A program made the translations under genes and the position numbers. Shown here in pieces: positions 17,343-38,490 of a DNA stretch of 39,016 nucleotides (the first letter of the stretch is position 1; each line of letters opens with the position of its first letter). Under the pieces are notes generated by a model. That model saw nothing but the letters and a program-made list of their open reading frames with translations, was not told where the DNA came from and searched no databases. The stretch is from an uncultured Clostridia bacterium (GTDB taxonomy: Bacteria; Bacillota; Clostridia; TANB77; CAG-508). Location: the NCBI GenBank assembly GCA_947594065.1, contig CANQDX010000012.1, positions 1 to 39,016 of the forward strand, given 5' to 3'.

Positions 17343-17346
17343 TCCT

Positions 17347-17395
17347 ACAAATAGAATGTACTCTGCTGCGCATATCTTCGTGTTATTCTATTTGT
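17347..17395 (-). promoter_or_regulatory. Hairpin in the rpoB-rpoC spacer
   Basis: ACAAATAGAA (17347-17356) and TTCTATTTGT (17386-17395) form a perfect 10-bp stem immediately before the AGGA and ATG of the longest rpoC frame. A smaller GCGC element sits in the loop. It could be an RNA-processing site or limit access to the first ATG. Confidence 0.45.
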
Positions 17396-17437
17396 TTTAT
17401 GTATTTGATATTCACTTTTCATTACTATTCAATATGA

Positions 17438-20400
17438 TTATTTATCTTCTTCTGATAAGTCCTCTTCATCTTCTAAATTGTCTACTGCAAGGTCTGAATC
17501 ATAAAGGTCTTCATTGTCCTCATCATCTAGTAGGTCATCTGTATCAAATAATTCATCTGTATCTTCTAGGTCTTCTTCTATATACCCGCCTTCTAGTTCG
17601 TCATTTTCAATTACATTTTCTTCATCTAGAGACAATTTTTCTTTTTCTAAGTTAAAGTCTATACCATCTTCAATATTTTCTTTTAATTCAAGCTCTTTAT
17701 TGTCTTCAGAATATAGTTTTACATCTAGTCCTAAGCTTTGTAATTCTTTGATTAACACTTTAAAGCTTTCTGGAACACCTGGTTCTGGTATATTTTCTCC
17801 TTTTACAATTGCTTCATAGGTTTTTACTCTTCCTACAACATCATCTGATTTTACAGTTAAGATTTCTTGCAATGTATGTGCTGCACCATAAGCCTCTAAT
17901 GCCCAAACTTCCATTTCTCCAAAACGTTGTCCACCAAATTGTGCTTTTCCTCCTAAAGGTTGTTGAGTTACTAATGAGTATGGTCCAGTTGAACGAGCGT
18001 GTATTTTATCATCAACTAAGTGGTGAAGTTTTAACATATACATTACACCAACAGTAACTGGTTTATCAAACTTTTCACCTGTTCTTCCATCGTAAAGGTC
18101 TATTTTTCCATCTGGTCTACGTCCTACTTTTTCTAATAATTCACATATTTCCGCTTCAGTTGCACCATCAAATACTGGAGTTGCAATTTTCCATCCTAAC
18201 TCACGAGCTGCTGCTCCTAAATGTACTTCAAGAACCTGACCTAAGTTCATACGTGAAGGAACACCTAATGGGTTTAATACAACATCAACTGGTGTACCAT
18301 CTGGTAAGAATGGCATATCTTCCTCTGGAAGAATTCTAGAAACAACACCTTTATTTCCGTGACGTCCAGACATTTTATCTCCAACTGATATTTTTCTTTT
18401 TTGTGCAATGTAGCATCTAATAACTTGATTTACTCCTGGTCCTAGTTCTTCTGAATTATCTCTTGTAAATATTTTTATATCTACAATTGTTCCTGCTTCT
18501 CCGTGTGGAACTCTTAATGATGTATCTCTAACTTCTCTTGCTTTTTCTCCAAAGATAGCACGAAGTAGTCTTTCCTCAGCTGTAAGCTCTGTTTCACCTT
18601 TTGGTGTTACTTTACCAACTAGGATATCTCCAGGTCTTACTTCTGCACCAATTCTTATAATACCATTTTCATCTAAGTCTTTTAAGCTATCTTCTCCAAC
18701 GTTTGGAATGTCTCTTGTAATTTCTTCTGGTCCTAATTTTGTATCTCTACATTCGCAATCGTATTCTTCTATATGAATAGATGTATATACGTCATCTTTT
18801 ACTAATCTTTCACTAATTAAAACTGCATCCTCGTAGTTGTATCCTTCCCAAGTTGCAAAGGCAATTAATACGTTTTTACCTAATGCCATTTCACCTTTAT
18901 CGGTTGATGGTCCATCTGCTATAACATCTCCTGCTTTAACTTTTTCACCTTTTACAACAATTGGTCTTTGATTAATACAAGTACCACCGTTGGTTCTTTT
19001 AAATTTACGTAGTTTATATGTTTTTAAACCTTTTTTTGTTTTTAATATAATTTCGTCTCCTGTTACTTTTTCAATTGTTCCGTCTTCGTCAGCTATTACC
19101 ATAATTCCAGAATCTTTTGCTGCTCTATATTCCATACCTGTACCAACAATTGGTGATTCTGTTTTTAATAGTGGAACTGCTTGACGTTGCATATTTGCAC
19201 CCATTAATGCACGGTGAGCGTCATCGTGCTCTAAGAATGGTATCATTGCAGCACCAACAGAAACTAATTGTTGTGGTGAAACGTCTATGTAATCTACATC
19301 TTCTGGTGGAACCTCTGCGATTTCATCAGCAATTCTTACTTTTATTTTTTTATTAATAAATTTTCCATTTTTATCAACAGGTTCTGATGCTTTTGCTATA
19401 ACATAGTTTTCTTCTACATTTGCTGGCATATATTCTACAATATCTGTTAATTTATGTGTTTTTTTATCTACTTTTCTATATGGTGTTTCAATAAATCCAT
19501 ATTCATTAATAATTGCAAATGATGATATTGCTGAAATTAATCCAATGTTTGGTCCTTCTGGAGATTCTATTGGGCATAATCTTCCATAGTGTGTAAAGTG
19601 AACGTCTCTTACTTCAAATCCTGCTCTTTCTCTTGTTAAACCTCCAGGTCCTAATGCTGATATTCTTCTTTTATGTGTAAGTTCTGATAATGGATTGGTT
19701 TGATCCATAAATTGTGATAATTGTGAACTTCCGAAGAATTCTCTAATAGATGATGTGATTGGTTTTGTATTAATTAATGTTTGTGGTGTTACAACATCTA
19801 AGTCTTGAATTGTCATTCTTTCACGAACAACTCTTTCTAATCTTGTTAAACCAATTCTAAATTGATTTTGTAATAATTCTCCAACGCATCTTACACGTCT
19901 ATTTCCTAAGTGGTCAATATCATCTACTTTTCCTAGTCCGTGATCTAAATTTAATAAGTAGTTAATAGAAGCTATTATATCTTCGTTTGTAATATGTTTT
20001 GGTAATAGCTCTTCCATTCTTTCTACAATTACTTTTAGCAAATCTTTTTTATCTGTATTTTCAATTATATTTTTAAGCACTTCATAGTTAACATTTTCTT
20101 TTATAACTACATCTTTAAAATCAATGTCTAAAACGCTATGAATATCTACTGTTCCATTACCAATAACTCTAACTTTTTTATCATTTACTTTTACGTCTAC
20201 AATATTAATTCCAGCATTTTGAATTTGTTTTGCTGTTTCTGCTGTAATGGTACTATCTTTTTCTACCAAAACTTCTCCTGTTTCTGGATTAATAATGTCT
20301 GAATAAGCAATTTGATTTGTTATTCTTGTTGCTAAACATAATTTTTGATTATATTTATATCTACCAACTTTTGCTAAATCATATCTTCTTGGATCAAATA

Positions 20401-21172
20401 ATAATCCACTAAATAGGTTTCTTGCAGCATCTGCAGTTGGTAATTCTCCTGGTCTTAATTTTTTATAAATTTCAATTAATGCTTCATCTTGAGTTTTGAT
20501 TGTATCTTTTGCAAGAGTTGCTTTTATTTTTTCTTCTTCTCCAAATAATTCTACTATTTGCTCATCTGTAACTAAGCCAATTGCTCTTAATAATGCAGTT
20601 ACAGGTATTTTTCTTGTTCTGTCAACTCTGGCATAAAATACATCATTTGCATCTGTTTCATATTCTAGCCACGCACCGCGTATTGGCATAACAGTTGAAG
20701 TAAATAATTTTTTTCCTGTTTTGTCGTATGTAAAAGCATAGTAACATCCTGGTGAACGTACTAACTGACTTACTACAACTCTTTCTGCACCATTAATGAC
20801 AAAAGTTCCCGTGTCAGTCATTAATGGAAAATCGCCTAAATAGATTTCTTGCTCTTTAATTTCTCCTGTTTCTTTGTTAATTAATCTTACTTTTACGTGT
20901 AATCTTGTTGCATAAGTTGCATCTCTTTCTTTTGCCTCTTCTAGAGAATATTTTGTTGTATCCTCCATATAGTAATCAAAAAATTCAAGTATTAGATTGC
21001 CAGAATAGTCTACTATAGGTGAAATATCTTTTAAAACTTCGCCTAAACCTTCTTTTACGAACCAATCATAAGAATCTTTTTGAACCTTGATAAGATTTGG
21101 CATTTCAATGCTATCTTCTGTTTTTGCGAACGTTTTACGTACGCATTTTTCGTGTTTGATATCTTTTACCAA
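17438..21172 (-). CDS. rpoB: RNA polymerase beta subunit
   Basis: The beta subunit forms half of the polymerase active cleft. The rifampicin pocket reads [16 protein letters not shown] then [13 protein letters not shown], wild type at the usual resistance positions. [17 protein letters not shown] and the C-terminal [18 protein letters not shown] are present. The last roughly 80 residues are a Glu/Asp-rich tail, as in several clostridial RpoB proteins. The longest frame opens at a GTG (21179-21181), but this GTG is within the Shine-Dalgarno-like AGGGGTGA; a TTG at 21170-21172, 5 nt after it, is the better start and gives 1244 residues. No rplL precedes it. Confidence 0.97.
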
Positions 21173-21181
21173 ACTAATCAC

Positions 21182-22450: not shown

Positions 22451-23491
22451 TTAACATTTTTTTAAACAATGTATATATTCTATAGTACTATCTTTTAAAT
22501 AATCTCTATTGCTATCTGCTTTAAACCTTTTATAATTTTTTTCGTATACCTTATATTCACCATATTTTGACATTATTTCTTTTATTCTATTCAATGGAAT
22601 AATTCCTTCATCATTATAACTTAAAAATATATATTTAAATTTAGCTTTTTCTATTATATCTTCAAGAACTGTTTCAACTTCTTTTTTTATACAATATTTA
22701 GATCGTTTTTTAGTTTCTTCTCTTACTCCAGCTTTTCCCTTAATTAATGGATTATCATACAACGCAATAGTTTCTAACATGTGATAATTTGTATCATATT
22801 TCCTTGTATTATATGGTGGATCCATATATAAAACATCTCCCGAAATTTTATTTATTAATAAATTTGCGTCTTCGTTTGTTACAAAATATTTTTTTTCTTT
22901 ATCATTAGTTAATATTTCTAAAGGTTTTATTTCCATTGTTTTTTGGGCTGATTTTTTTATGTCTTTTAAAAAAGCCTCATATACAGAAGCAGTATTTGCT
23001 ACTTTATCTGCAGCTTCTAATAAGCACGTAATTAAATAATAATATTCATTTTCTTTTATTAATTTATTATTCTTCCATTCTTCTATTTTATTTCTTACTG
23101 AGTCAATTTTTATAGCATTTTCTTCAGTAAAGTATTTTCTTTCATACTCTTGGTTTTGAGTACCACTTATAGTATAATTTTGAAATATAAATCCCTTTTT
23201 ATCATTTAACTTATTTAAATATTCAAATACACTTTGTATTCCTTTATCTTTCAATTTATTAAAAGTTATTTTTTCATTATTTTCTATAAAATGTTTTGCA
23301 TATACAAAACTATAATATTCTATATCATTTGAAATAATATTGTATCCCTTATTTTTAAAATATTTTCCTACACTTGAAGTTCCAGCAAATATATCACAAA
23401 ATGTAACGTCATTATCAGATATTTCTGCAAAATCTTGTATTGTATTATCAATATAGCTAAGTATAGACATCTTTGATCCTATATAATTCAT
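22451..23491 (-). CDS. D12-class DNA adenine N6-methyltransferase
   Basis: The 346-residue protein belongs to the Dam/D12 (alpha-class) DNA methyltransferases that transfer a methyl group from SAM to adenine N6. The N-terminal NYIGSK and CDIFAGTSSVGKYF form the SAM site (motif X and motif I, about 2-45), and DPPYN at 224-228 is catalytic motif IV. The target recognition region lies between them and after. It has its own promoter and terminator and is 200 bp from the next nuclease gene on the same strand, so it probably protects the chromosome from one or both of the nucleases encoded at 23692-25426. The recognition site cannot be read from the sequence. Confidence 0.9.
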   Translation of the reverse strand: MNYIGSKMSILSYIDNTIQDFAEISDNDVTFCDIFAGTSSVGKYFKNKGYNIISNDIEYYSFVYAKHFIENNEKITFNKLKDKGIQSVFEYLNKLNDKKGFIFQNYTISGTQNQEYERKYFTEENAIKIDSVRNKIEEWKNNKLIKENEYYYLITCLLEAADKVANTASVYEAFLKDIKKSAQKTMEIKPLEILTNDKEKKYFVTNEDANLLINKISGDVLYMDPPYNTRKYDTNYHMLETIALYDNPLIKGKAGVREETKKRSKYCIKKEVETVLEDIIEKAKFKYIFLSYNDEGIIPLNRIKEIMSKYGEYKVYEKNYKRFKADSNRDYLKDSTIEYIHCLKKC

Positions 23492-23517
23492 TTCAATGCC
23501 CCTTTCAACGTAAATAC

Positions 23518-23545
23518 ATTATAACATTATATATTTTTTTCTCAA
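23518..23545 (-). promoter_or_regulatory. Promoter of the D12 methyltransferase gene
   Basis: On the minus strand TTGAGA (23540-23545) and TATAAT (23518-23523) are 16 bp apart, and AAAGGGG lies before the ATG. Confidence 0.7.
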
Positions 23546-23691
23546 TTTTTACTTAAATTTTTTTATAATCTTTATTTATAATATTGGAAATATTTATAAA
23601 AAGAGTGAATGGATTCATTTAAATACTTACATAAACTTGTTAATGATAAAAACAGGCTATATATTAAAATCAGTTGTTGTGAAGAATTTAG

Positions 23692-24318
23692 TTACTTTTT
23701 TATTAAATGTTTTCTAAATTCTATTGGATCGTACCAAAAACAACCTATACATCCTTCTTCATTTCCAATATGATTTTCATCTCCAGCATAAAACGACATA
23801 GGATATCCTATTTTTTTAGCATCAAATCTTTTTTTAGTTCTTCTACACTCTTTACAAAACTGTCTTTTAGCGTCATTAGCTGCTTTGCTTAACGGTTGAA
23901 AATCTTCTAACTTTTGAGTTTTTATATCCATAGCGCCATCATTTTTCCAACCGTTTTTGTGATCTATCTCTGGATTAGAGGTATATAAAATCACGCATCT
24001 TTTATTCTTATAATAATTTTTTATATCGCTTCTTATTGTTTGATTTCCAATTCTGTCTTTTTCTTCCTTATATCCATTTAGTCTTATTCTATCTACACCA
24101 TTTCCTGAAGTAATTGACTTATCAAATTCAATATAATAATATTTTGCAATTGTGGATTCCTTTCTACACCAATCTGCTCCATTTTGAAACATTAAACTTG
24201 CATATTCTCCAACGAACTCATCTTTTGACACCCATCTACTTTTACCATTTTCGTTTGGGTTTGCTAATTTTATAAATAAATATGGTTTTGTTCCTTGTCT
24301 AAATTTTGGTTTATTCAT
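23692..24318 (-). CDS. HNH-type zinc-binding endonuclease, probably a restriction enzyme
   Basis: This 208-residue protein has a beta-beta-alpha metal nuclease signature: NPEIDHKNG with Asp119-His120, Asn148 in SKAANDAKRQ, and two CxxC pairs (155/158 and 190/193) that should bind a structural zinc. Small HNH restriction enzymes of this layout exist in several Type II systems. The N-terminal half (1-100) is not recognised and may read DNA. It overlaps the upstream nuclease gene by 8 nt, so the two are translationally coupled. Restriction activity is inferred from the fold and the neighbouring methyltransferase. Confidence 0.72.
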   Translation of the reverse strand: MNKPKFRQGTKPYLFIKLANPNENGKSRWVSKDEFVGEYASLMFQNGADWCRKESTIAKYYYIEFDKSITSGNGVDRIRLNGYKEEKDRIGNQTIRSDIKNYYKNKRCVILYTSNPEIDHKNGWKNDGAMDIKTQKLEDFQPLSKAANDAKRQFCKECRRTKKRFDAKKIGYPMSFYAGDENHIGNEEGCIGCFWYDPIEFRKHLIKK

Positions 24319-25426
24319 CTACTTTTACCTCATCAAAAAAAATATTATTATCTTTTATTTCATATTTAATATATTTTATAGGATTTATTGCCAATTGTTC
24401 TGATGTGCAAGTTAAATAATTTCTAATTGATTTATACATTTCTTTAGTTCTATTTAATGGTTTTTGTGCAACTATAATTTGATTTATAATAACCTTTTTA
24501 TTGTATGTTGGGACTATATAATCTTTAATCCATTCAATATATTTTTGCAATTGGTATTTAATATATTCTTTAGGTTGCCCCGCTTTTAATTCACATATGG
24601 ATATATTAGCTTCTTTTTCATTTTCTTGAACAAAGCAAATATCAATACTTTGCATTCCAACACCACAAGAAACTTCATTTCCTATCCAAGTAATTTTATC
24701 TCTACTTACTTTTAAGCAATCTATATCGAATAAATTTTGTAAAATATATGCTTGTAGGTGAGCTTCTTTTCTTTTATATAAAAATCTATCTTTTATATCC
24801 AAAGATTCTTTTTTACCTGTATATTTGTATTCTTTGTCTGATGCAATAATTCTAGTATTAGTTGCATCATAATCAAAATTATTTGTATTTATATATTCAT
24901 TACTATTTTTTTCTGCTAATTTTTTCATTATTTGATCATATTCATAATTAGTAATCATAGTACAACCTCTATTGCCTTTTAGCTTTCTATATATTAAACT
25001 CCAACACATTTGACTTGGATGTGTAATTCCATCTAAAGAGTCTAAACATTCTCGTTCTGTAATCCCTTTTGAATATACTTTATCTGGAATAAGTTGTACC
25101 CTAAAAATAAGATTTTTATGTAATCCTTCTTTATATAAGAAGTTATCATTGCATAAAAATGGTTCTTCTGCTACTTTAAAACTTCCAAAAAACATTCCTT
25201 CATGATCTTTACCTTGCTGTAAATAGAAAAGAACAGAATCTCCTTTTTTCACCCTTGAAATATCAGCAATCATTGAAATAAGTAATGTTTCCGTACGTTT
25301 TCCTTCTAATTCAATATTGTTATTTCTTAAGAATTCTCCTTTATATTCTCTTGCTCCTGTTCCTGCAAATTTATATTTTAAATGAAACGGTATAGTGTTT
25401 TCATTAACTATGAATATATGTGCCAT
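24311..25426 (-). CDS. EVE/PUA-like domain fused to a PD-(D/E)XK nuclease
   Basis: The 371 residues show two parts. Residues 1-165 have a PUA-superfamily look, with VKKGDSVLFYLQ (59-70) then GMFFGSFKV (77-85), as in EVE or YTH-like domains that can bind modified bases. Residues 215-330 resemble a PD-(D/E)XK nuclease: Glu222, Asp262 in QSIDICF and Glu279-Leu-Lys281 in ICELKAG, followed by a helix. It sits 2 nt after the small regulator and overlaps the HNH gene. It could be a Type II restriction enzyme or a modification-sensing nuclease; the sequence does not decide which. No named system is assigned. Confidence 0.68.
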   Translation of the reverse strand: MAHIFIVNENTIPFHLKYKFAGTGAREYKGEFLRNNNIELEGKRTETLLISMIADISRVKKGDSVLFYLQQGKDHEGMFFGSFKVAEEPFLCNDNFLYKEGLHKNLIFRVQLIPDKVYSKGITERECLDSLDGITHPSQMCWSLIYRKLKGNRGCTMITNYEYDQIMKKLAEKNSNEYINTNNFDYDATNTRIIASDKEYKYTGKKESLDIKDRFLYKRKEAHLQAYILQNLFDIDCLKVSRDKITWIGNEVSCGVGMQSIDICFVQENEKEANISICELKAGQPKEYIKYQLQKYIEWIKDYIVPTYNKKVIINQIIVAQKPLNRTKEMYKSIRNYLTCTSEQLAINPIKYIKYEIKDNNIFFDEVKVDE

Positions 25427-26717: not shown

Positions 26718-27257
26718 TCATATTAAAGATTTAAAATCAACTCTACCATCTAATTCTATTAGCCTCTCACATATAGCATTATAATATTCCAATAGTAGTT
26801 CTATCGTTTCTTCAGATAATTCATCGTATTCATTTAACTTTTTCTTTAATACATCTATATTTTCTATATCAAATAGCTTATGTACCATATCATTTCTATT
26901 TTTGTTTAATTTTTCTAGACATTCTATCAAAATTTCTCTATTGTACTCTTTTATTGTAAGCTGTTTAAAATATTCTATTAATTTACCAAAGGTGCATTTT
27001 GTTAGTTGTAAATTAAATTCTATAGAAGTAGGCCAAATTTCTGCTTTTAAATATCCTATACTACATATTATGACTTCTTTTAAAAGTTGCTCTGCTATTT
27101 GATTAAAAATAAGCATTCCACCTATTTTTTGCGATATTTCTTCTGAATCTTTACTTTCTTTTGCTATATTAAATAAAAATCGTTTTCTTTCTATTTTACT
27201 TTCTTTTTCCCACTCTCGATTTATCATATATTCGATTACTTCATCATTTTCCTCCAT
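26718..27257 (-). CDS. HEPN-type helical protein, putative ribonuclease
   Basis: The 179 residues are mostly alpha helical and contain RNDMVH at 121-126, fitting the R-x4-6-H catalytic motif of HEPN RNases found in toxins and abortive-infection proteins. A preceding helix (GGMLIFNQIAEQLLKEVI, 46-63) would form the core of the bundle. The gene overlaps the upstream 309-residue gene by 14 nt and ends at a strong terminator, so the pair is cotranscribed. The motif is seen; RNase activity and a defence role are inferred. It could also be a structural HEPN without catalysis. Confidence 0.6.
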   Translation of the reverse strand: MEENDEVIEYMINREWEKESKIERKRFLFNIAKESKDSEEISQKIGGMLIFNQIAEQLLKEVIICSIGYLKAEIWPTSIEFNLQLTKCTFGKLIEYFKQLTIKEYNREILIECLEKLNKNRNDMVHKLFDIENIDVLKKKLNEYDELSEETIELLLEYYNAICERLIELDGRVDFKSLI

Positions 27258-28173
27258 AATCTATAATCTCCTTATTATATATTTTTATTATTTCATTTAA
27301 TTTTTCTAATTGCTTTTTAGTAAAATATTTTTTCAAATAATATTCTAAAAATTTATTAAGTTCCGATTTTTGAATATTCCCATTTTCTAATAATTCTGTA
27401 CTCTCTTTAGTATAGTATATAATTAATTCTCTTTCTTTTTCTGTTCTAATTCGAAATAGTTTGTCTGGCTCTCCAATAATCTTCTCACTAAAATTCTTTA
27501 TTTCTTCTATTTTGTTTTCATTTTTTAATAAAATATTTATCAAGTTAAAAGTAATAATTGTGTAAATAATACAAGTTTCATTTTGTAACTCTTCTAAACT
27601 TAATTTGGTACAAACAGCATCTATATACATTAATATAATAGGATAAATTAAAAATGTTATCAAGCAATAATTTAAAATATCTTTTATATTATTATTTTTT
27701 TGTGCTAGATATACAAACTCATTGACTTTTGTAGCATGTGCATATCTACACAAAGTTTTATATATATATGTTAAAATTCCTTCTTCCAAAATATTTTCAA
27801 AAATATTCTCTCTTTCTACAATTGAAAAATATCTATTTATATTATTTCCTATATATCTTCTAACTTTATCCATTCCGTCTTTATCTACTTTTTTAAATAT
27901 TTTGTTATAAGATTCATATATTTCTTTGTTATCTTCCAAAACTATTGCTTTTAGTGTCATTTCATATGCATTTCTTAAGCAAGGCAAAGCAACATTTATC
28001 TTTCCTTTTTCCATTAGTTGTAAAATATTAATAATTAATTCACCCGATGCACAAAGATTATTACTACATGAATTTTGTAAATTACTGTTTTCTAAAATTT
28101 TTAGTATATTCTTTAATTGCTTTATGTACATTTTATTGCATATATAGATAAATTCTTTTAATTGTTCCATCAT
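27244..28173 (-). CDS. All-helical protein of unknown function, partner of the HEPN gene
   Basis: The 309 residues are predicted helical, with ALPCLRNAYEMTLKAIVL (62-79) and LCRYAHATKV (141-150), a pattern recalling DUF5677 or AbiV-like proteins that also have HEPN-like folds. The spacing Arg143-x2-His146 does not meet the usual R-x4-6-H rule. Hydrophobic stretches near 165-220 might be buried helices or membrane segments. It begins with two ATG codons in a row after AGGAG, behind a hairpin that follows the Fic gene. The overlap with the next gene suggests a two-protein unit, either a toxin with its control protein or a heteromeric effector. Confidence 0.5.
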   Translation of the reverse strand: MMEQLKEFIYICNKMYIKQLKNILKILENSNLQNSCSNNLCASGELIINILQLMEKGKINVALPCLRNAYEMTLKAIVLEDNKEIYESYNKIFKKVDKDGMDKVRRYIGNNINRYFSIVERENIFENILEEGILTYIYKTLCRYAHATKVNEFVYLAQKNNNIKDILNYCLITFLIYPIILMYIDAVCTKLSLEELQNETCIIYTIITFNLINILLKNENKIEEIKNFSEKIIGEPDKLFRIRTEKERELIIYYTKESTELLENGNIQKSELNKFLEYYLKKYFTKKQLEKLNEIIKIYNKEIIDYGGK

Positions 28174-28245: not shown

Positions 28246-29181
28246 TTATTTATTTCCAATATAATATTTAATCATTTCTGTGTATTGATCTTGTGCGTTT
28301 AAACAAGTATCTATTAAATATCCTTTTTCTTTATTAGTTTGATATTGATTTAATCCCCTATAATAAAATAGTTTTTCTTTATCCATAATAATAAATGGTA
28401 CTATATTATTTTTCAAGCATTCTTTAAATGCAATTATTCTACCAACTCTACCATTACCGTCCTGAAATGGATGTATCTTTTCAAATTTTGCATGGAATTC
28501 TATTATTTCATTTATAGTTACTTGTTTTAAAGAATTATACCATTCTAATAATTTTTTCATATCTCTTTCAACATTTTTTGGATCTGTAGTTTTTAAACCG
28601 CCAACTTCATTTGGCAATTTTTTATATTCACCTACATTAAACCAGTCTTTTCTGCTATCTGATGTTCCTTCTTTTAATATTTTGTGAAATTCCTTTATCA
28701 TATTTTCAGTTATTTTTTTATCTGCTATTTCTAACATATAATCAACTAATTTAAAGTGATTAACTGTTTCTAAAACATCATCTAAATCTGTTATTGAATC
28801 TTTCTCTGCTAATAATATATTAGTCTCATAAATATATCTAGTCTGATCTTCTGTGAGTTTACTTCCTTCAATATGATTTGTATTATATGCAAATGTAATT
28901 TGTGTATTATGATATAAATTTCCTTTTAATTTCATATTTTTTTGTTCTCTTAACACTTTTATGATGTTTATCTTAGATATATCAAAATCATCTTCTTTTA
29001 GTAACTCATCAATTGAAATTTCATATAATTCAGCCAATTTTTTCAATGATTCTATATTAGGTTCTAATGTTCCAGCCTCATATTTTGAAATTGTTGCTGC
29101 TTTTACTCCTAGTATATTAGCCACTTCGTTTTGAGTCATATTTTTGTTTTCTCGATATAACTTTATTTTTTCTCCTAACAT
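28246..29181 (-). CDS. XRE helix-turn-helix plus Fic domain protein
   Basis: Fic enzymes transfer AMP or related groups from nucleotides to target proteins. The 311 residues start with a Cro/C1-type helix-turn-helix (1-62: MTQNEVANILGV...ISKYEAGTLEPN). The Fic domain follows with the complete catalytic motif HPFQDGNGRVGR at 237-248, so it is probably active. TNHIEG at 101-106 fits the (S/T)xxxE(G/N) inhibitory motif placed before the Fic core, as in autoinhibited class II Fic proteins. The attached HTH suggests that it controls its own promoter. It may be transcribed into the helical/HEPN pair if the intervening hairpin is read through. Targets are unknown. Confidence 0.9.
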   Translation of the reverse strand: MLGEKIKLYRENKNMTQNEVANILGVKAATISKYEAGTLEPNIESLKKLAELYEISIDELLKEDDFDISKINIIKVLREQKNMKLKGNLYHNTQITFAYNTNHIEGSKLTEDQTRYIYETNILLAEKDSITDLDDVLETVNHFKLVDYMLEIADKKITENMIKEFHKILKEGTSDSRKDWFNVGEYKKLPNEVGGLKTTDPKNVERDMKKLLEWYNSLKQVTINEIIEFHAKFEKIHPFQDGNGRVGRIIAFKECLKNNIVPFIIMDKEKLFYYRGLNQYQTNKEKGYLIDTCLNAQDQYTEMIKYYIGNK

Positions 29182-29202
29182 AAAAAAATTCTCCTTTTTA
29201 GT

Positions 29203-29239
29203 ATAATATTATTATATCATATTGTTTCCAAAAAGGAAA
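29203..29239 (-). promoter_or_regulatory. Promoter and palindromic operator of the Fic gene
   Basis: On the minus strand TTGGAA (29226-29231) and TATTAT (29203-29208) are 17 bp apart. TTTCC-AAAAA-GGAAA (29225-29239) is a perfect dyad overlapping the -35, a likely binding site for the HTH part of the Fic protein. Confidence 0.65.
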
Positions 29240-29282
29240 GTTTTTATTATTAAATAATTCTAAATCTCTAAAGCGGAAACAT

Positions 29283-30287
29283 TTAATTATTGTTTTTATA
29301 ATCAATATATTTTCTTTTTATATAAAATCCTAATCCAATTTCTACTTGATTATGCTTTATTTCTAATTCTGTATCTCCTACATAAGAAACATTTTTTCCA
29401 TATTCTTTTACTTCTTCAATATTTATATTTTTTATGTAATTATTTTTGAATTCTTCAAATTCTTTATTTGACTCAAATTCAACAACTACTTCGTTTAATC
29501 TATCCATAGCATATACTTCTTCTGAATTATCATAACCTTTTTCATAATTAAATAAAAAGTCTCGTAAAATAACTTCTTTAGAATTTTTTATAAAATACTT
29601 GTATTTATACACATTATTATTAAAATTTATGTATGCTGATAAAGGAACTACAGTTTTCAATCTTCCAGAATCTAGGCTCACAATTTGTTTTGAATATATA
29701 CAAGTATTATTATATTTTAAATATAACATAGAAAATTCAGTGCTATTATTACTCATTAAATAACTATAAAATTCAGTATTATAATTTTCTTCACTTTGAA
29801 TCTCAATTCTATAACTAGGATTTTCTTTATAATAGTATCCATCAATGTTTTCATCTTTAATTTCTGTCCAATTATCAACATCTTTTAATGTTTCAAATAT
29901 ATATTCCAACTTATCTTTTTGGCTTAAAATAATTCTTTTGCCAAAATTGTAACCAATTATATTTTCAGTCTGTTCTTTCCAAAGCTTTATTAATGAAACC
30001 GTATATTTATTTTCATCACTATCAATTAATTTAGCACAACTCTGACATAGCCAAATACCATTATCTATGCTTTTCCTTTCTTGCTCTGTCATATTAACAT
30101 CATATCTTGGTCCTCCTGGAGCTGCAGCACAAATATGAGCTGCAACTCCTATATTATTAATACCTTTTTTACTATCTGGACCTATTGTCATTTTTCTGCA
30201 ATTAGGATTAGAACAAATATAAGATACTCTTTTAGCTAACTTGTTTTTTATTAATTCAGTAAAATTATCTCTTTTATCAGATTTCAC
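29283..30287 (-). CDS. HNH endonuclease with unknown C-terminal domain, third gene of the Gabija-like operon
   Basis: The first 100 residues form a zinc-bound HNH nuclease: CSNPNC (25-30), AAHICAAAPGGPRYD (49-63) with His51, SIDNGIWLCQSC (73-84). This motif set is common in defence nucleases, including the HNH part of CBASS Cap5. Residues 120-334 have no recognised domain and look like a mixed strand-helix sensor or binding part. It starts with GTG and lies 48 bp after the UvrD-like gene on the same strand, with no obvious terminator between them, so it is probably cotranscribed with that pair. Classical Gabija has only two genes, so its job here is open. Confidence 0.72.
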   Translation of the reverse strand: MKSDKRDNFTELIKNKLAKRVSYICSNPNCRKMTIGPDSKKGINNIGVAAHICAAAPGGPRYDVNMTEQERKSIDNGIWLCQSCAKLIDSDENKYTVSLIKLWKEQTENIIGYNFGKRIILSQKDKLEYIFETLKDVDNWTEIKDENIDGYYYKENPSYRIEIQSEENYNTEFYSYLMSNNSTEFSMLYLKYNNTCIYSKQIVSLDSGRLKTVVPLSAYINFNNNVYKYKYFIKNSKEVILRDFLFNYEKGYDNSEEVYAMDRLNEVVVEFESNKEFEEFKNNYIKNINIEEVKEYGKNVSYVGDTELEIKHNQVEIGLGFYIKRKYIDYKNNN

Positions 30288-30335
30288 CTTAATTTAATAC
30301 CTCTCTTATTCTATTATTGTAAAATTTTAATGTTT

Positions 30336-32189
30336 TTATATCTTTATCACATTTTCTTCTCCAAACCATTCTTTTGCTTTATTTATTACTGTAATTGATG
30401 GTTGGCAATAATATACATATAATTTTTCTCTTGCTCTGGTACAACAAACATAGAAAATTTTTTGAGTCCTTTTTAATACATTTTCACTTCCAACTCCAGT
30501 AAATAAGTATTCAAAATTATATTGATTCCATTTTCCATTATCTAATATTACCAATACATTATCAAATTCAGTACCTTTTACTTTATGCTGTGTTGAAAAT
30601 GGAGTAAAGCCTTCTATATAATTAAATAAGTTTTCAAATTCCAAATATGGTAACTTTTTTACTCTTTCATATAGATATTGATTATTATCTATAAAAACTT
30701 TGAATCTATCATCTTTTTTACAAACTCCTAATTCATCTGCTAAATCTATTATTTCTTCAATTGTATGATTTTTGATTTCTTTTAACTTATTAATCTTTTC
30801 GTTAATATTTCTTTTATCTTTAATACTAATAATAGGATATTCTATTTTTCTTATAAATTCGTTATATTCTTTATTATTATATAATGCTATTAATTTTTGA
30901 ATTTTAAATAAGTGATTTATAAAATCATCTCTTTTTCTTCCTTTGCTTTCGATTTCCTTGAATGACAATTTTTTATCATCTACTAGTGAGTCTTTTGAAA
31001 AATACATTTTTCTAATTTTCATAAACGATTTATCTTTTACCATATTATATAAAATATTTTTTTCCTTATCATTCTTTATTTTCTTAACTTTTTCATAAAT
31101 TTTTGGATACGAATTAACTACTTCTTCAAAGGTAGCATTTTCATCTATTGCAGATTCACCAATTTCTTTTATTAATTCTTTCTTCAGTTGTAGAATAGGA
31201 TCCTTATCATATATATCCATTAGTTCTCCAAATCCTGCTCTAGATGCTATTAAATTATGTGTTAAATCTAATTCTTTTGTATTTACTGAGTCTTTAAAAT
31301 TCCAATTTTGAAATATTTTATTTTCTTTTAGATTTTCATAGTCAAGAGAACAATCTGAATATATAAATTTTATTTCTCCTATCTTCACTTTACCATTTTC
31401 CATGTTGGGAGCTCTTTTATCTTTTGATGGTTCTTGAATTAAACCGTCCATCCTTATTTTATTTGCTAGTGCTATAACATTCATTGGATTTCTTCTATTT
31501 TGTTTTTTCTGTATTTCTATGATTTCTCCATTACTTATGTATTCATTCAAGTCTCCTACTCCATCATTATATATTGATTGCATTGAATCTCCAAAAAAGC
31601 CTATAATATTCTTTTTATTACTTTTTTTTAAGCTCTCTAATAAAATTTCTATAACTAGCTTATTTGTATCTTGATATTCATCCACTAGTATAAAGTCATA
31701 TTTATCTTTTAATATATCACATAATATTTTATAGTCACTATACATTTTATTAGCAACTAATATAATTTCATCATGTGAAATTATTCCATTTGCAATGTCA
31801 AGATACTCTTTATATTGAACATTCATATCTTTAAAATAGTCGCTAGAAATATTTTTTTCTTTAAATTTTATATCCCCATTATTTATTAATACTACTAAGC
31901 AATTTTTTAATTCCTTTTGGTAATTTTTTATGTTCTCCCATAAGAAATCATGGATTGTAGATACAAAAAAATTTTTATCATCAATGACTCTTTCCTTTAT
32001 TTCATTTACAGCAACATTAGTATATGTTATACAAGCTATTGTTTTATTATTATATTTTTCTTTTATTAAATTAATGGTTTGAACTAGTGAATATGTTTTT
32101 CCACTACCAGCTCCTCCACTCAACAAAAAATTATTATTATTCTCTATGCATTTTTCAATTTCTTCTAACTCGTCTACTGTTTTAACCAT
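30336..32189 (-). CDS. UvrD/Rep-like helicase, GajB-like
   Basis: The protein is a superfamily 1 helicase-like ATPase: Walker A GGAGSGKT near residues 25-32, TYTNVAVNEIK, VDEYQDTN (Walker B, about 169-176), and C-terminal VKGTEFDNVLVI and CCTRAREKLYV. Counted from the ATG at 32187-32189 it has 617 residues; the frame stays open to a TTG at 32223-32225, but AGAGGG precedes the ATG. It overlaps the end of the OLD-family gene by 16 nt, as expected for translational coupling. In Gabija, GajB senses DNA termini and activates or works with GajA. It is somewhat longer than GajB of Bacillus cereus VD045, so a subtype is likely. Confidence 0.85.
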   Translation of the reverse strand: MVKTVDELEEIEKCIENNNNFLLSGGAGSGKTYSLVQTINLIKEKYNNKTIACITYTNVAVNEIKERVIDDKNFFVSTIHDFLWENIKNYQKELKNCLVVLINNGDIKFKEKNISSDYFKDMNVQYKEYLDIANGIISHDEIILVANKMYSDYKILCDILKDKYDFILVDEYQDTNKLVIEILLESLKKSNKKNIIGFFGDSMQSIYNDGVGDLNEYISNGEIIEIQKKQNRRNPMNVIALANKIRMDGLIQEPSKDKRAPNMENGKVKIGEIKFIYSDCSLDYENLKENKIFQNWNFKDSVNTKELDLTHNLIASRAGFGELMDIYDKDPILQLKKELIKEIGESAIDENATFEEVVNSYPKIYEKVKKIKNDKEKNILYNMVKDKSFMKIRKMYFSKDSLVDDKKLSFKEIESKGRKRDDFINHLFKIQKLIALYNNKEYNEFIRKIEYPIISIKDKRNINEKINKLKEIKNHTIEEIIDLADELGVCKKDDRFKVFIDNNQYLYERVKKLPYLEFENLFNYIEGFTPFSTQHKVKGTEFDNVLVILDNGKWNQYNFEYLFTGVGSENVLKRTQKIFYVCCTRAREKLYVYYCQPSITVINKAKEWFGEENVIKI

Positions 32190-34216
32190 TTCAATCCCTC
32201 TTCTATATAACTTGGTATATTCCAATTTGTATAATTTTCATCACTATTTAATAAGATTTCTATTGCAAACGATGGTTTACTATCAATACATTTCTGTGCA
32301 ATTTGGTAAAAATCATCAGGACTTTTTTCAATAATATCTTTATCTTTTAAAGACTCAAACTCATTTTGTTTTATAAATTCTTGATTGATACAAATAAAAG
32401 CATCTTCAAAGCTTCTAGGATAATAATTTACTATATCTTCTTTCAATTGATATTGAACCATTACTAATCCATTTATGTCCTTTTCCCATTTTTCTCCCAT
32501 TTTTCTCAAAATTCTTTTATCTGTTGTGATATTCTTTAATACTTCTAGACTTTTATCATCATTGTCAATATATTTATCAAAAAAGTATCTTAATGAATCA
32601 TTGCTTGTCCTAATTGCATCCACATTATTTACTGGACAGGATTTATAAACTATTTTCCCTCTAGAATCTAATTCTCTTTTTATTGAGTCGATATCGGTTA
32701 TAATTAATGTCTTTATTTGTATAAAATCAAGAAATTTATCAAATATTTTAGAATGACTTCCAACTTCTATTATTGAAATATTTTGTGATAATAATTTTTC
32801 TTCATCTTTATGATTTTCTAAATCAATTTTTTTCAACATTGCTGGTAGAAGAATTCTTTCAGTATCTCCTTCTATTAAAATAATCTTATCTGCAAAAAAT
32901 ATTTCAGATCTATTTAAAGTTAAATATTGTTTTAAAAATTTATAATTTTGTTTTTCTGACCCATAATGCTTTTCAAGGTCTTTTAAATTTTTGCACCAGG
33001 TTCCTCCGATATTATTTTTATTAAGATATTTTATATCATTAAAATCACTTTGCGATACAATATGAGAAGAATGTGTTGTTATTATAGTTTGTAAGTTAAT
33101 TTTCTTTTCTTCTTTTGATTCATTCAATAATTCTTTGATATTATTAATAAATATATATTGCATTTGTGGATGTGTATGTGCTTCTGGCTCTTCAATAAAT
33201 AGCAAATTTATATCTGAGCTTTTACCATCTTTACAAAAATCATTTATTATAATTTCAATGTCGAAAATAATACTAATTAAATTTAAATATCCTAATCCAT
33301 TATAATTTTCTGGTAAATTTGATTGTTCCTTATAATTATAGAATACCGTTGTATTTCCTTTTAATATACTGCTTTGTTGTAATAATGACTTTATTTTAAT
33401 ATTTAAATCATCTTTTTTTAAACATCCAAATTTTTTTACTTTTTTCAATACCCCTTCAAAAATTTTCTCATAGTTTTTATCAAATTTTTCATCTGTCTTT
33501 TCTAATTCATCTTTAAATTCTGTTAAGCTTTCTTCCATTTCTGGTTTTTCTTTTATCTTTTCATAATAACTTGATGATTGCACTGATAAAGTATTATTAG
33601 TATCCTTATTATCTACAGCCCTTTTGGCAGATATATATTTCATATTTATTATATTGTTAATTTCTTTATCATTTTCTATATCAATATATATTTCTTCGTT
33701 TTCCTTTTTTTTCTCAATATCATATTCTAAACTTCGCTTTATCGTTTTAAAATATTTTTTATAATTATGTTTAAAAAAGTATTCAAAATCCTTATTACTT
33801 TTTTTCTCCATAAATTTATTAAAATCTGTTTTTAGATTATCAAAATTTTCTTTGTTTAAAAAATATTCAAAGTTTAAAATGATATAATTATTTTCAACAT
33901 CAAGCGTTGTTAAAAATTTAGAAATATTCGATAAATTATCATTCTCATCGTATCTCACAAATATTATTAACTTAATTCCTTGATTATTAAATTCATAATC
34001 TTTATCTTTTATATTACTTTCTAATTCTTTTACATATTCTATATTAAAATCTTCACTTTCAATTGTATTTTTATTTAAAAACTTGTTTAATATCTCTATA
34101 ACTGATGTTTTCCCTACATTATTTTTTCCAACAACCAAAGATAGTTCACTTTCTAAATCAATACTAAAATTTTTTAAGCTTCTAAAATTTTCCACTTTTA
34201 TTTTTTCTATTTTCAT
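32174..34216 (-). CDS. OLD-family ATPase with TOPRIM nuclease, GajA-like
   Basis: The 680 residues have an SMC-like ATPase part with Walker A GKNNVGKTS (30-38), an ABC-type signature region around NGLGYLN (306-312), Walker B LLFIEEPEAHTHP (338-350) and H-loop THSSH (381-385). A TOPRIM domain follows, with Glu449 in LIEGDTE and Asp508-x-Asp510 in IITDIDS. This is the class 2 OLD architecture found next to UvrD-like helicases, i.e. the Gabija pair, where GajA nicks DNA when nucleotides are depleted. The TOPRIM acidic residues are intact. It has its own promoter (TGTCGA at 34264-34269 and ATCATA at 34242-34247 on the plus strand) and AAGGAG before the ATG. Confidence 0.88.
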   Translation of the reverse strand: MKIEKIKVENFRSLKNFSIDLESELSLVVGKNNVGKTSVIEILNKFLNKNTIESEDFNIEYVKELESNIKDKDYEFNNQGIKLIIFVRYDENDNLSNISKFLTTLDVENNYIILNFEYFLNKENFDNLKTDFNKFMEKKSNKDFEYFFKHNYKKYFKTIKRSLEYDIEKKKENEEIYIDIENDKEINNIINMKYISAKRAVDNKDTNNTLSVQSSSYYEKIKEKPEMEESLTEFKDELEKTDEKFDKNYEKIFEGVLKKVKKFGCLKKDDLNIKIKSLLQQSSILKGNTTVFYNYKEQSNLPENYNGLGYLNLISIIFDIEIIINDFCKDGKSSDINLLFIEEPEAHTHPQMQYIFINNIKELLNESKEEKKINLQTIITTHSSHIVSQSDFNDIKYLNKNNIGGTWCKNLKDLEKHYGSEKQNYKFLKQYLTLNRSEIFFADKIILIEGDTERILLPAMLKKIDLENHKDEEKLLSQNISIIEVGSHSKIFDKFLDFIQIKTLIITDIDSIKRELDSRGKIVYKSCPVNNVDAIRTSNDSLRYFFDKYIDNDDKSLEVLKNITTDKRILRKMGEKWEKDINGLVMVQYQLKEDIVNYYPRSFEDAFICINQEFIKQNEFESLKDKDIIEKSPDDFYQIAQKCIDSKPSFAIEILLNSDENYTNWNIPSYIEEGLKWLKQ

Positions 34217-34241: not shown

Positions 34242-34269
34242 ATCATATTTAAGATATATATTTTGTCGA
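34242..34269 (-). promoter_or_regulatory. Likely promoter of the Gabija-like operon
   Basis: On the minus strand TCGACA (34264-34269) and TATGAT (34242-34247) are 16 bp apart, about 30 bp before the start of the OLD-family gene. Confidence 0.5.
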
Positions 34270-34289
34270 AACTTGTCTTTTATTATCAA

Positions 34290-34337
34290 AAAAGCAAAAT
34301 AATTTCGCAATATTTAAATTACAATTATTTTGCTTTT
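34290..34337 (-). terminator. Terminator of the second restriction-modification operon (copy 2 of a repeated hairpin)
   Basis: AAAAGCAAAATAAT (34290-34303) and ATTATTTTGCTTTT (34324-34337) form a perfect 14-bp stem, 8 nt after the HNH nuclease stop. The arms are identical to those at 28191-28238; the loop differs. Confidence 0.82.
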
Positions 34338-34345
34338 CATATGTA

Positions 34346-35737
34346 TTATTTAACTCTATATAGTTTCTTGATTTCATCTAAAGTAATGTTAAATCCAATA
34401 GATTTATATCTTGGTATTAATTTTTGATAAATATCTTCTATTATTTGAGCTTTTACTTCATTTGTGCCATTATGGAATGCCCTATGACAAGTTGGACAAA
34501 GTGAAACTATATTTTCAACACAGTCAACATTTATACTGTATTTAGCCCATATTAATTGTTGGTATTTTACTGGTACCAAATGATGAGCTTCCATGAAGTT
34601 TTTATGACTTTTTGCAGAAATGAAAGTTTCGTGATTAGGATTATGTTCGCAACAGTAATAAGATTTTTGAATAGCAATTTTACCTAATAATGGATTTCTT
34701 TTATACTTTTTACTGATTTTTTTATCATCATCCAATATAACTGGTGCTATTTTATATGCGCCATCAGCAACATCTGAATTGACATTATTTTCATCAATTT
34801 TATCAATTTTTTCAATATAATTGTCATCTTTTTCTTCGTCTGATTCTTCTGACTCAATTACTTCTTCTTTTATATTTTCATCAAGCCTTTCAACTTCAAT
34901 TTCTTGTGGTTCATCAATAAGATTTATATCGAAATCTTGTACATTATATAAAAAATATGAGTAATCAACATCTCTATAAAGAATTTCGTTTAATTCTTCT
35001 ATATCATATTTAAGCATAAAATTATTATAAAAATAATTGTCAAATACTGGATTAATAGCTATAGTATTAGCAGTTATATTAAATAGATTTGTATTGTTTT
35101 TAATTAGAGCAATAATTCTACTATAATCTTTGTAATGTTCAACATACTCTGATATTGGAGAATTTGTTCTTATAAATTCAACTGCTTGCTCCCATTGGTT
35201 ATATTCTTTGCAAGTCATTATATATGTATATAAATGATCTATTGATACTTCATTAATACCATATTTTAATTTCAATTCCTTTAAAACTTTATAAATAAAA
35301 ATTACGGGCAGAATGTGATAATCCTCATTATTATTTGCGGTATCAATAATTGCATGGATTTTTATTTTTAAAATTTGCTCTGTTAATACTTTGTGAAATC
35401 CATCTATGTTAAAAAATGGATTAATATTTTTTAATTTATCCCATACAGCTGTTGTTTTTTCTTTATTATATAATTGTCCTTTTTTATAAAAAGGTGTTTT
35501 AGTTACAAATCCGAAAAATTGTGGTATAACAAGTGTTCTATGTCTATCAGTTTCAACATCAAATTCATTATGATAATCCTTCCAATATTGTTCAATATCA
35601 GTATGTTCTCTATCAGGAATTTTGTCAAACATATTAGTTGCATTGATAATTTGATCTAAATTACTTGTTTGCTGTTTAGTAAATACCCACACAGATTTTT
35701 CATTAAGTGTTTTTAAGTACTCTTCTGCACTAATCAT
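34346..35737 (-). CDS. HNH endonuclease, probable restriction enzyme of the two-methyltransferase operon
   Basis: The 463 residues end in a classical HNH domain: CC at 362-363, EAHHLVP at 384-390, VENIVSLCPTCH at 407-418, and FHNG. The N-terminal 270 residues are mixed helix and strand without a recognised domain and may recognise DNA; an acidic linker (about 275-320) joins the parts. It overlaps the cytosine methyltransferase gene by 8 nt, so it belongs to the same transcript. A Type II restriction enzyme is the best reading of this context. A modification-dependent nuclease is less likely because two methyltransferases are coupled to it. Confidence 0.75.
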   Translation of the reverse strand: MISAEEYLKTLNEKSVWVFTKQQTSNLDQIINATNMFDKIPDREHTDIEQYWKDYHNEFDVETDRHRTLVIPQFFGFVTKTPFYKKGQLYNKEKTTAVWDKLKNINPFFNIDGFHKVLTEQILKIKIHAIIDTANNNEDYHILPVIFIYKVLKELKLKYGINEVSIDHLYTYIMTCKEYNQWEQAVEFIRTNSPISEYVEHYKDYSRIIALIKNNTNLFNITANTIAINPVFDNYFYNNFMLKYDIEELNEILYRDVDYSYFLYNVQDFDINLIDEPQEIEVERLDENIKEEVIESEESDEEKDDNYIEKIDKIDENNVNSDVADGAYKIAPVILDDDKKISKKYKRNPLLGKIAIQKSYYCCEHNPNHETFISAKSHKNFMEAHHLVPVKYQQLIWAKYSINVDCVENIVSLCPTCHRAFHNGTNEVKAQIIEDIYQKLIPRYKSIGFNITLDEIKKLYRVK

Positions 35738-36827
35738 TTTCTAATATCCTCCTTATCATTATTCCTAAAAAATATGACAATTTAGGTGGTACTGCATTTC
35801 CTATTTGTTTACATATACTGGATTTTGTGCCCACAAATTCAAAATCATCAGGAAAGCTTTGTATTCTTGCTGCTTCTCTTGGAGTAATAGTTCTATTTTC
35901 AAATGGATGAATAAATCTTCCTCCTGAAGGAGTATCAAATCTTGTAGTTATTGTTGGAGCTATACTATTAGGATCTAATCTTCCATATGATCCACTATGT
36001 ACAGTTTTTATTTTTTCATCTAATACTGTAAAATTTTCATTAATACCTACCTTTTCCATTCTTCTAACAGCAACAGAATTATGATTTGTCATTATATGAT
36101 TATATGTTTTACCTGAGTTTGAACTTAAAAATCTTTGATAATTATTTTCTGCTTTTTTTGTTTTTATCTTACCATCTTTTGTCGGTTTTGGCAAATTTGA
36201 TATAGCTTGCCAAACTGTAACATTATCAAAGAAATACTTGTCTGTTCCTTTTATATATTCTTTAGTTTTAATTATTTCTTCATCTAAATCAAAATCTATC
36301 GTTGAACCAATAATTATTGTTCTTTCTCTATTTTGTGGAATTCCGAATTCTTTTGATTTCATTACTTTGCATTGAATTTTATATGGCTTTCCTTCAAAAT
36401 TTTCTGGATTTTCAAATATTTTTTTTATTTCATTGAATACTTGTCCATTTTTCATTGTAAGTATTCCCTTTACATTTTCTATAATGAACATTTTAGGTCT
36501 TACAATTTTCACAACATTAAAGTAATGTTTAAATAGGTAATTTCTTGGGTCATCAATAAATCCTTTTCTTATCCTTGCTCCAGCCATTGAAAATCCTTGA
36601 CAAGGAGGTCCTCCTATTATAATCGTTGCGTCATTTTTTTTAAAAACATTATTATTATCTACATTTTTTATATCATCTGCTATCATTTTTGTTTTTGGAT
36701 GATTTATTTCATATGATTTTGCTATGTTCTTATCAAATTCAACTGCTGAAATTATATCATATCCAGCTTTTTCAAATCCACATGAAAATCCACCACATCC
36801 AGCAAATAAATCTATTACTCTAATCAT
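35730..36827 (-). CDS. DNA cytosine C5-methyltransferase
   Basis: This 365-residue enzyme methylates C5 of cytosine through a covalent intermediate. All main motifs are present and in order: DLFAGCGGFS (6-15), GGPPCQGFS with the nucleophile Cys76 (72-80), ENVKG (117-121), QNRERTIIIG, and the C-terminal REAARIQSFPDDF and QIGNAVPP. The variable target recognition region lies between motifs VIII and IX. It overlaps both neighbours by 8 nt (adenine methyltransferase upstream, HNH nuclease downstream). The recognition site is unknown. Confidence 0.95.
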   Translation of the reverse strand: MIRVIDLFAGCGGFSCGFEKAGYDIISAVEFDKNIAKSYEINHPKTKMIADDIKNVDNNNVFKKNDATIIIGGPPCQGFSMAGARIRKGFIDDPRNYLFKHYFNVVKIVRPKMFIIENVKGILTMKNGQVFNEIKKIFENPENFEGKPYKIQCKVMKSKEFGIPQNRERTIIIGSTIDFDLDEEIIKTKEYIKGTDKYFFDNVTVWQAISNLPKPTKDGKIKTKKAENNYQRFLSSNSGKTYNHIMTNHNSVAVRRMEKVGINENFTVLDEKIKTVHSGSYGRLDPNSIAPTITTRFDTPSGGRFIHPFENRTITPREAARIQSFPDDFEFVGTKSSICKQIGNAVPPKLSYFLGIMIRRILEND

Positions 36828-38490
36828 TTATTCCCTCACTAACTCTGTATTTTAAAGCAAAATTTTTACAGTATTTTATTTCATCATTACTTAATTTATA
36901 TTCTTTACCTATGCAATCATCTATTTCATCAATTATGTCTTTACACAACTTATGTTTATATTCATAATTCGTTTGTTTTGATCCTATATATTTCTTTGTT
37001 TTTTCAAGTTTATTTTCCAACTTCTTGTATAATTTTTCATACATTTTATTATCTTTTAATTCTTTTGGCAATATAAAATGTCTTAACTCTTTTGTAGTAA
37101 TATGCCAACAATCCGATATTATAGTCCAGTATACCCAAAATAGACTAGAATTTAATAAGCATAATATAAAATAATAATATTCATTTTCGTATTTAAATTT
37201 TTTATATTCATTACTTCCTGGGTTAAAAGTAAATGCTTTAATCCAAAATGTCGCTCTCATATTTATATTTATTTCTTTTCCATTTTGATTTTGAAAATCA
37301 TATAAATTATTTTTTTCTTCAGTATAAATTTTTTTATATATGCTTTCCTCTATCTTATTACCTATTTTAGGAATATAATCCATTATATCACATTTTTCTA
37401 TTCTTTTAATTTCTCTTCCATTTAATAATTCTTTTCTTTCTTCTTTATACCAATGTTTATAATTTGATGAATATATTTCCTTACTTGAGTTACCTAATCT
37501 AAAAATTAAAATTGTTAATTTTTGATGTACTCCAGTAAATAAGCAGTCTGGTCTATCTGCGAAATTAAGTAAAAATTGTTTTTCCGATTTTTCATAAATA
37601 AATTCTCTAATCTTGTTCATTCTTGGAGTTGCTACATATGATAACGGAATAATATATCCTAAGACTGTATTTTCATTACTCATATTTATACTGTTTTTTA
37701 AAACATCTGCATAAATATTTCCAAAATTATTTTCTAATTTGCATTTATTTTCCTTTTGATACTTTCCATATTCTACATACGGAGGATTTCCAACTATAAT
37801 ATCAAATTTCATCTTGATTTTTTCATATTTTTGTATATAATCAATTGTAAAAAATCTTTTATTTATTATCTCTGCTAATTTGTTAAACGATTCTTTTTTT
37901 TGTAGTTTATTTATTAATGTAAAATATATTCTTAATTTGCATATGTCAATCGATTCATTATCTATATCATTTCCATACATTGTTTCAGCTATTTTTAAAA
38001 CAATTTCATCTGTTATTTCTTCATATTTCAATATTTCAAACTTTACATTTATAGCATTTATTAAAAATTCTCCTGTACCGCAAGTAGGATCAAAAACTGT
38101 ATATTTATACAAAATATTATTTTTTTCCTCTTTTAGATTTCTAAGAATTTCAATACAATCTTCATCATTATGTGTTTGATTTAGTTCTCTATTTACTTTC
38201 ATAAGAAATGAATTACATATAATATACCTTGCTACATCATCCGATGTGTAATACACTCCGTTATTTTTTTGTTTTTTGCTTTTTTCATTTAGTTTAAATA
38301 AACTTAATTGAAAACTCTCATCCGTTATAAATTTTATATCATTTTTATTAATAGAATCATCAAAATCATACTTTTTGTAATTTTTATCTAGTAATATTTT
38401 TAACGCACTATAGATTTCATTTATATAATTTTCTGATTGAGATAACCTATTAATAGTTATATTTCTAACTTTTTGTTTTACATTAGTCAT
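36820..38490 (-). CDS. DNA adenine N6-methyltransferase, TaqI/Eco57I-like
   Basis: The 556-residue protein is a gamma-class amino-methyltransferase: motif X NGVYYTS (77-83), SAM motif I FDPTCGTG (133-140), GNDID (173-177) and catalytic NPPY (235-238). The C-terminal half resembles a TaqI-like target recognition domain with terminal helices. It lacks an N-terminal PD-(D/E)XK motif, so it is not a fused Type IIG enzyme. It follows the small regulator by 31 bp and is coupled to the C5 methyltransferase. Together they could mark the two strands of a non-palindromic site. Confidence 0.88.
   Translation of the reverse strand: MTNVKQKVRNITINRLSQSENYINEIYSALKILLDKNYKKYDFDDSINKNDIKFITDESFQLSLFKLNEKSKKQKNNGVYYTSDDVARYIICNSFLMKVNRELNQTHNDEDCIEILRNLKEEKNNILYKYTVFDPTCGTGEFLINAINVKFEILKYEEITDEIVLKIAETMYGNDIDNESIDICKLRIYFTLINKLQKKESFNKLAEIINKRFFTIDYIQKYEKIKMKFDIIVGNPPYVEYGKYQKENKCKLENNFGNIYADVLKNSINMSNENTVLGYIIPLSYVATPRMNKIREFIYEKSEKQFLLNFADRPDCLFTGVHQKLTILIFRLGNSSKEIYSSNYKHWYKEERKELLNGREIKRIEKCDIMDYIPKIGNKIEESIYKKIYTEEKNNLYDFQNQNGKEININMRATFWIKAFTFNPGSNEYKKFKYENEYYYFILCLLNSSLFWVYWTIISDCWHITTKELRHFILPKELKDNKMYEKLYKKLENKLEKTKKYIGSKQTNYEYKHKLCKDIIDEIDDCIGKEYKLSNDEIKYCKNFALKYRVSEGIND

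Follow-up and report, generated by a model that had tools for sequence, protein, structure and literature searches.

An HNH-S50 gene directly behind a Gabija pair in an uncultured Clostridia bacterium: a candidate one-gene defense module

The Gabija pair, the third gene and their surroundings

In this work, we analyzed a stretch of 39,016 nucleotides from an uncultured Clostridia bacterium (contig CANQDX010000012.1; the window), whose source genome comprises 1.14 Mb in 43 contigs and is 98% complete. Three genes follow each other on the minus strand: gajA (32174..34216), which encodes an OLD-family ATPase-TOPRIM endonuclease of 680 aa; gajB (30336..32189), which encodes a UvrD/Rep-like helicase of 617 aa when read from the ATG at 32189; and a third gene (29283..30287), with a GTG start, which encodes a protein of 334 aa that we refer to as HNH-S50. 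GajA matched the PADLOC profile PDLC00079 (E 4.6e-256) and the Pfam families AAA_15 (7e-68) and OLD-like_TOPRIM (4e-16), and it carries a Walker A motif (GKNNVGKT, residue 30), a Walker B motif and the TOPRIM E...DxD signature (IEGDTE at about residue 449 and DID at 508). GajB matched PDLC00135 (E 6.1e-230) and the Pfam family UvrD-helicase (3.5e-22), with the UvrD motifs GGAGSGKT (Walker A), DEYQD and CCTRAR. The two genes overlap by 16 nt (32174-32189) if gajB starts at the ATG mentioned, or by 52 nt if it starts at the TTG at 32225 chosen by the ORF caller; the corresponding overlap is 19 nt in loci L042, L066 and L072-L074. Profiles, motifs and coordinates all agree with a preliminary description of this DNA that had recognized a Gabija-like pair with a 16-nt overlap. 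Both proteins, their motifs, the gene order and the small overlap are shared with known Gabija and, as judged from its sequence, this is an ordinary, complete-looking and intact gajA-gajB pair with a predicted defense activity. The difference lies in the appended third gene, which is foreign to known Gabija: in Bacillus cereus, gajA and gajB are enough for defense (PMC8136825), and their products form a 4:4 complex and provide phage defense (PMC10781630, PMC10822852).

The gap between gajB and the third gene spans 48 nt (30288-30335). A consensus scan detected no terminator on the minus strand in this gap, which contains a weak A/U-rich fold (-5.7 kcal/mol) without a T tail, so that coordinates, terminator scan and folding bear out the earlier observation that the third gene lies 48 bp downstream on the same strand with no obvious terminator. 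Upstream of gajA, an intrinsic-terminator-like hairpin followed by a T run (34285..34345, minus strand; -17.5 kcal/mol, z -5.1) separates the pair from a restriction-modification (R-M) operon. Since there is a clear terminator upstream of gajA and none after gajB, the three genes can form one transcription unit, and a single transcript for gajA, gajB and the third gene is plausible. A promoter-like site upstream of gajA (TCGACA-16-TATGAT; 34242..34269, minus strand) matched the consensus at 10 of 12 positions, in a consensus scan that returned promoter-like sites across the region in numbers near the shuffled expectation. Downstream of the third gene, the intergenic region 29182..29282 (minus strand) contains the palindrome TTTCCTTTTTGGAAA and a TATAAT element before a gene encoding an Xre-Fic protein; it forms no strong hairpin (z -0.8) and is likely the start of a separate unit, in which the Xre-Fic gene would have its own palindrome and -10-like element.

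The G+C content is about 0.21-0.25 for Gabija, HNH-S50 and most genes of the island, and about 0.33 for rpoBC (13746-21181); base composition cannot tell Gabija from the third gene, as both lie within the same range. The upstream R-M operon (34346-38490) encodes two methylases, an N6 enzyme of the Eco57I-like type and a C5 enzyme, together with an endonuclease of the HNH_2 type (463 aa); its genes overlap by about 8 nt and it ends at the strong terminator before gajA. On the other side, the product of the Xre-Fic gene (28246-29181) matched PADLOC PDC-S04 (E 2e-107), and two overlapping genes follow at 26718-28173, 1-2.5 kb downstream of HNH-S50, one weakly DUF5677-like and the other weakly HEPN-like. 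Farther away, a likely second R-M system is encoded beside rpoBC at 22451-25426; it comprises a D12-class adenine methylase, a member of the IceA family (PF05315, E 1.4e-69) and a protein of 371 aa that matched EVE weakly.

Domain architecture of the HNH-S50 protein

The third gene encodes an N-terminal Cap5-like HNH domain of about 112 residues (residues ~1-112; 29952..30287, minus strand) and a C-terminal domain of about 210 residues (residues ~120-334; 29286..29930, minus strand). Its GTG start is supported by an alignment with three full-length relatives, which share this start residue. A chance ORF or a decaying gene was ruled out, as the gene is intact and has three full-length homologues 66% identical to it; since the protein gave no match in Pfam or NCBIfam, its fusion to a nuclease or NTPase domain of a known family was likewise ruled out. 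A shorter relative, in genome G361, retains the HNH part alone.

The assignment of the N-terminal domain relies on PADLOC, PDB and Foldseek matches and on the alignment. It matched PADLOC PDC-M68A (2.3e-23) over residues 9-133, that is, in the N-terminal half of the window protein only; the name of PDC-M68A suggests a multi-gene candidate. It also matched the PADLOC CBASS endonuclease effectors (1.7e-16) and, by sequence, the Cap5 structure 7rwm (1.3e-5). Furthermore, its AlphaFold model (pLDDT 80) was matched to Cap5 by Foldseek with a probability of 1.00 and an rmsd of 1.9-3.7 Å over about 110 columns, a match whose support is the probability and not the E-value (about 0.01). Within the Cap5-like zinc-ribbon fold, the cysteines C25, C30, C81 and C84 are present. 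The domain thus has the zinc-ribbon ligands and the fold of the HNH nuclease superfamily but not the full H, N, H motif: H51 and N76 are in place, whereas Ala85 occupies the position of the third His. All 13 aligned members of the clade have Ala, Ser or Gly at this position, whereas two Cap5-like outgroup sequences retain the His-His pair; C25, C30, H51, N76 and C81 are conserved across the clade. Because the third His is missing across the clade, we infer, rather than assign, a nuclease activity; its metal site may be reduced, it may introduce nicks instead of cuts, or its role may be limited to DNA binding. In addition, a model of the Shedu protein SduA, described by the DUF4263 domain, matched the N-terminal region of the third gene.

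The C-termini to which the HNH module is joined on plasmids and phages are many and unrelated; one case is a P2-like lysogenic-conversion gene (P2-EC46). A large clade of such HNH-like proteins lacking the third His, with many different C-termini, is found on plasmids, phages and chromosomes (L012, L022, L027, L028 and L078-L084).

The preliminary description had likened the protein to the HNH nucleases of CBASS effectors. This holds at the level of the fold, as indicated by the PDB and Foldseek matches to Cap5, but not beyond it: Cap5 is an HNH-SAVED protein, whereas the window protein lacks the third His and has no SAVED domain, since there is no sequence match past the HNH domain and the isolated C-terminal domain has no significant fold match. 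Besides, PADLOC detected no CD-NTase among the nine neighboring proteins scanned. A CBASS effector was ruled out on these two grounds, the missing SAVED domain and the missing CD-NTase.

Residues 117-331 matched the C-terminal part of PADLOC PDC-S50 (E 1.5e-34), a name of the PDC-x type given to unpublished candidates of the PADLOC authors (PMC11811056); we use "S50 domain" for this C-terminal domain. Modeled alone from 20 sequences with AF2, it showed a beta-rich core followed by helices (pLDDT 87, pTM 0.85). Neither its sequence nor its fold had a significant match in the PDB. It is not a SAVED domain, and it is possibly a sensor or an assembly domain. The "unknown domain of about 200 residues" of the preliminary description thus corresponds to this domain of PDC-S50, of about 210 residues, and is not unique to this protein.

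The usual N-terminus of PDC-S50 is a Schlafen AlbA_2 domain. In contrast, the window protein has the HNH domain at this place, gave no AlbA_2 match and belongs to a separate clade. A genome-wide scan for the S50 domain yielded 25 loci: three with HNH-S50 and 22 others, in which the N-terminus is of the AlbA_2 type unless a contig end or a truncation has removed it; the AlbA_2 identity was established with Pfam PF04326 on L029, L042 and L055. In a tree of 26 S50 domains, the four HNH forms constitute one clade (100/100). The AlbA_2-S50 genes, which correspond to PHROG 29016, are mostly solitary and lie on plasmids and in prophages; among the latter, L091 adjoins an integrase gene, and L092 and L093 are located among phage genes (loci L101-L105 were read from annotation only). 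A scan of viral contigs found no relatives with the window HNH protein, its C-terminus or GajB as queries, in part owing to poor automatic peptide patterns; it worked with AlbA_2-S50 as the query. The distribution of the S50 and HNH modules is the pattern of a stand-alone cargo with exchangeable N-termini.

Neighborhoods of HNH-S50 relatives and of other Gabija loci

The three full-length HNH-S50 relatives (L009-L011) come from the same family of organisms and are located on mobile elements, which also carry a gene for a Mob_Pre relaxase or for an integrase. In each of them, a YaaC-like gene (PF14175, E 4e-25) lies 22-25 bp upstream of HNH-S50. None of the three has Gabija beside it, and no GajB was found in their genomes at E<=1e-20. 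The three relatives represent few independent events, however, because all of them look like one element family. The genome of the window gave no YaaC match, in a search run without a positive control; the family searches in general were close-homology methods.

Thirteen other Gabija loci were available for comparison (L066-L074, L085, L086, L089 and L090), some of them with split genes, a small sample in which relatives retrieved by sequence search are overrepresented. Within the stretch examined, neither an HNH nor an S50 module was found near Gabija in any of the 13, and the genes downstream of Gabija vary, with Fic in two loci and unrelated genes in the others. The preliminary description had raised two possibilities, a Gabija subtype with an additional effector and a separate one-gene defense that had joined Gabija. 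The search for an HNH gene after Gabija elsewhere revealed no co-occurrence (0/13 Gabija loci and 0/3 relatives), which, together with the genomes of the relatives devoid of GajB, argues against the former; the latter fits better, given that S50 proteins are mostly solitary on plasmids and prophages and that PDC-S50 is itself a PADLOC candidate.

One observation argues against wholly discarding the subtype. In L042 (Oscillospiraceae JAUNJJ010000120.1), a divergent Gabija pair (GajA 7e-183, GajB 1e-183; profiles PDLC00071/00138, versus PDLC00079/00135 in the window) is followed, 16 bp after gajB, by an S50 gene with a different N-terminus, AlbA_2. The S50 domain of L042 falls in a different supported clade of the S50 tree from that of the window; as the S50 clades and the Gabija profiles both differ, the two pairings arose separately. 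Furthermore, an S50 gene and a Gabija pair lie about 2 kb apart, on opposite strands, in L099. On account of L042 and L099, S50 genes are perhaps drawn to Gabija beyond chance, and there may be some attraction to Gabija or to defense islands generally, two situations that these numbers are too small to separate. Around 40 other S50 loci sit away from Gabija.

Alternative readings and a model for HNH-S50

The pairings just described could mean that Gabija has an optional third component in the S50 protein, which would dock on GajAB or be triggered by them and whose exchangeable N-terminus would add a second activity attacking nucleic acids. An S50 gene stands directly behind gajB twice, in very different Gabija lineages and from different S50 clades. 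Nevertheless, none of the 13 other Gabija loci has one, including L089, whose GajB is 61% identical to that of L042; most S50 loci are elsewhere; and the B. cereus pair needs no further gene. We therefore consider a third component unlikely, and slightly more so in its specific form, in which at least two lineages would have separately recruited S50 proteins as an undescribed component with a swappable HNH or AlbA_2 effector; it is because of L042 that this reading keeps the small probability that we give it. A literature search outside subscription papers retrieved no third Gabija gene, no naming of PDC-S50 and no link between YaaC and HNH in defense.

Two further readings concern the protein itself. 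The HNH-like domain could be a DNA-recognition module, with the zinc ribbon kept and the active site degraded, and S50 could be the acting or assembly part. The substitution of the third His in every clade member examined, against its retention in the Cap5-like relatives, and the SduA match of the N-terminal region point in this direction, but the conservation of H51, N76 and the zinc-ribbon positions, together with the Cap5 fold, is what would be expected for a retained active site, and the third His is also absent from some nucleases of the HNH superfamily; we regard this reading as improbable as well. Alternatively, HNH-S50 could belong to a two-gene system in which its partner is YaaC-like or HEPN-like; the copy in the window would then have lost YaaC or use the genes at 26718-28173. 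YaaC precedes all three HNH-S50 relatives, genes of the AlbA_2 type are overlapped by DUF5677 genes in L100 and L102, and the window has its weak DUF5677-like gene, so that DUF5677/HEPN-like or YaaC genes are possibly a recurring partner of S50 proteins. Against this, the window's genome has no YaaC match, HNH-S50 is separated from the candidate partners by the Fic gene, most AlbA_2-S50 genes lack a neighbor of this kind and the YaaC cases belong to one element family; a two-gene system is the reading to which we give the least credit.

Altogether, we favor as probable that HNH-S50 is a self-contained, modular one-gene defense candidate that moved in behind an ordinary Gabija and is not part of it, because its relatives are separate from Gabija, S50 is mostly solitary and the N-termini are exchanged. 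In this model, an HNH-S50 cassette, directed against phages or mobile elements, would have landed downstream of gajB in a defense island, where it can be transcribed together with Gabija. By analogy with the domain swaps of other defense effectors, the S50 domain would recognize an infection cue or keep the protein inactive within an assembly; triggering would release the Cap5-like zinc-ribbon HNH domain, which would then attack DNA; HNH-S50 would act alone, in parallel to Gabija. Several findings count against parts of this model. The 48-bp spacing, the common strand and the lack of a terminator, which fit co-transcription with Gabija, the Gabija-S50 neighborhoods of L042 and L099, and the single element type shared by the three Gabija-free relatives all weigh against a separate module, and the missing third His weighs against the nuclease step. 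The model places an uncharacterized domain with no significant solved-fold match at the center of a mobile mix-and-match candidate defense module, whose N-terminus is interchangeable between at least two types, HNH and AlbA_2. If S50 proteins cooperate with Gabija, an overlooked accessory arm is added to a two-gene system that has been widely studied; otherwise, the locus clearly exemplifies the drift of a defense gene into the operon of another system.

Fic genes recur in some of these neighborhoods. In L072 and L068 they are found near Gabija, and in L051 and L052 (Clostridia/Lachnospiraceae) they immediately precede AlbA_2-S50, the two genes being arranged head to tail (L051:2611-4829 and L052:7162-10991). 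In L052, the gene after AlbA_2-S50 resembles, as judged by eye, a class III nucleotide cyclase.
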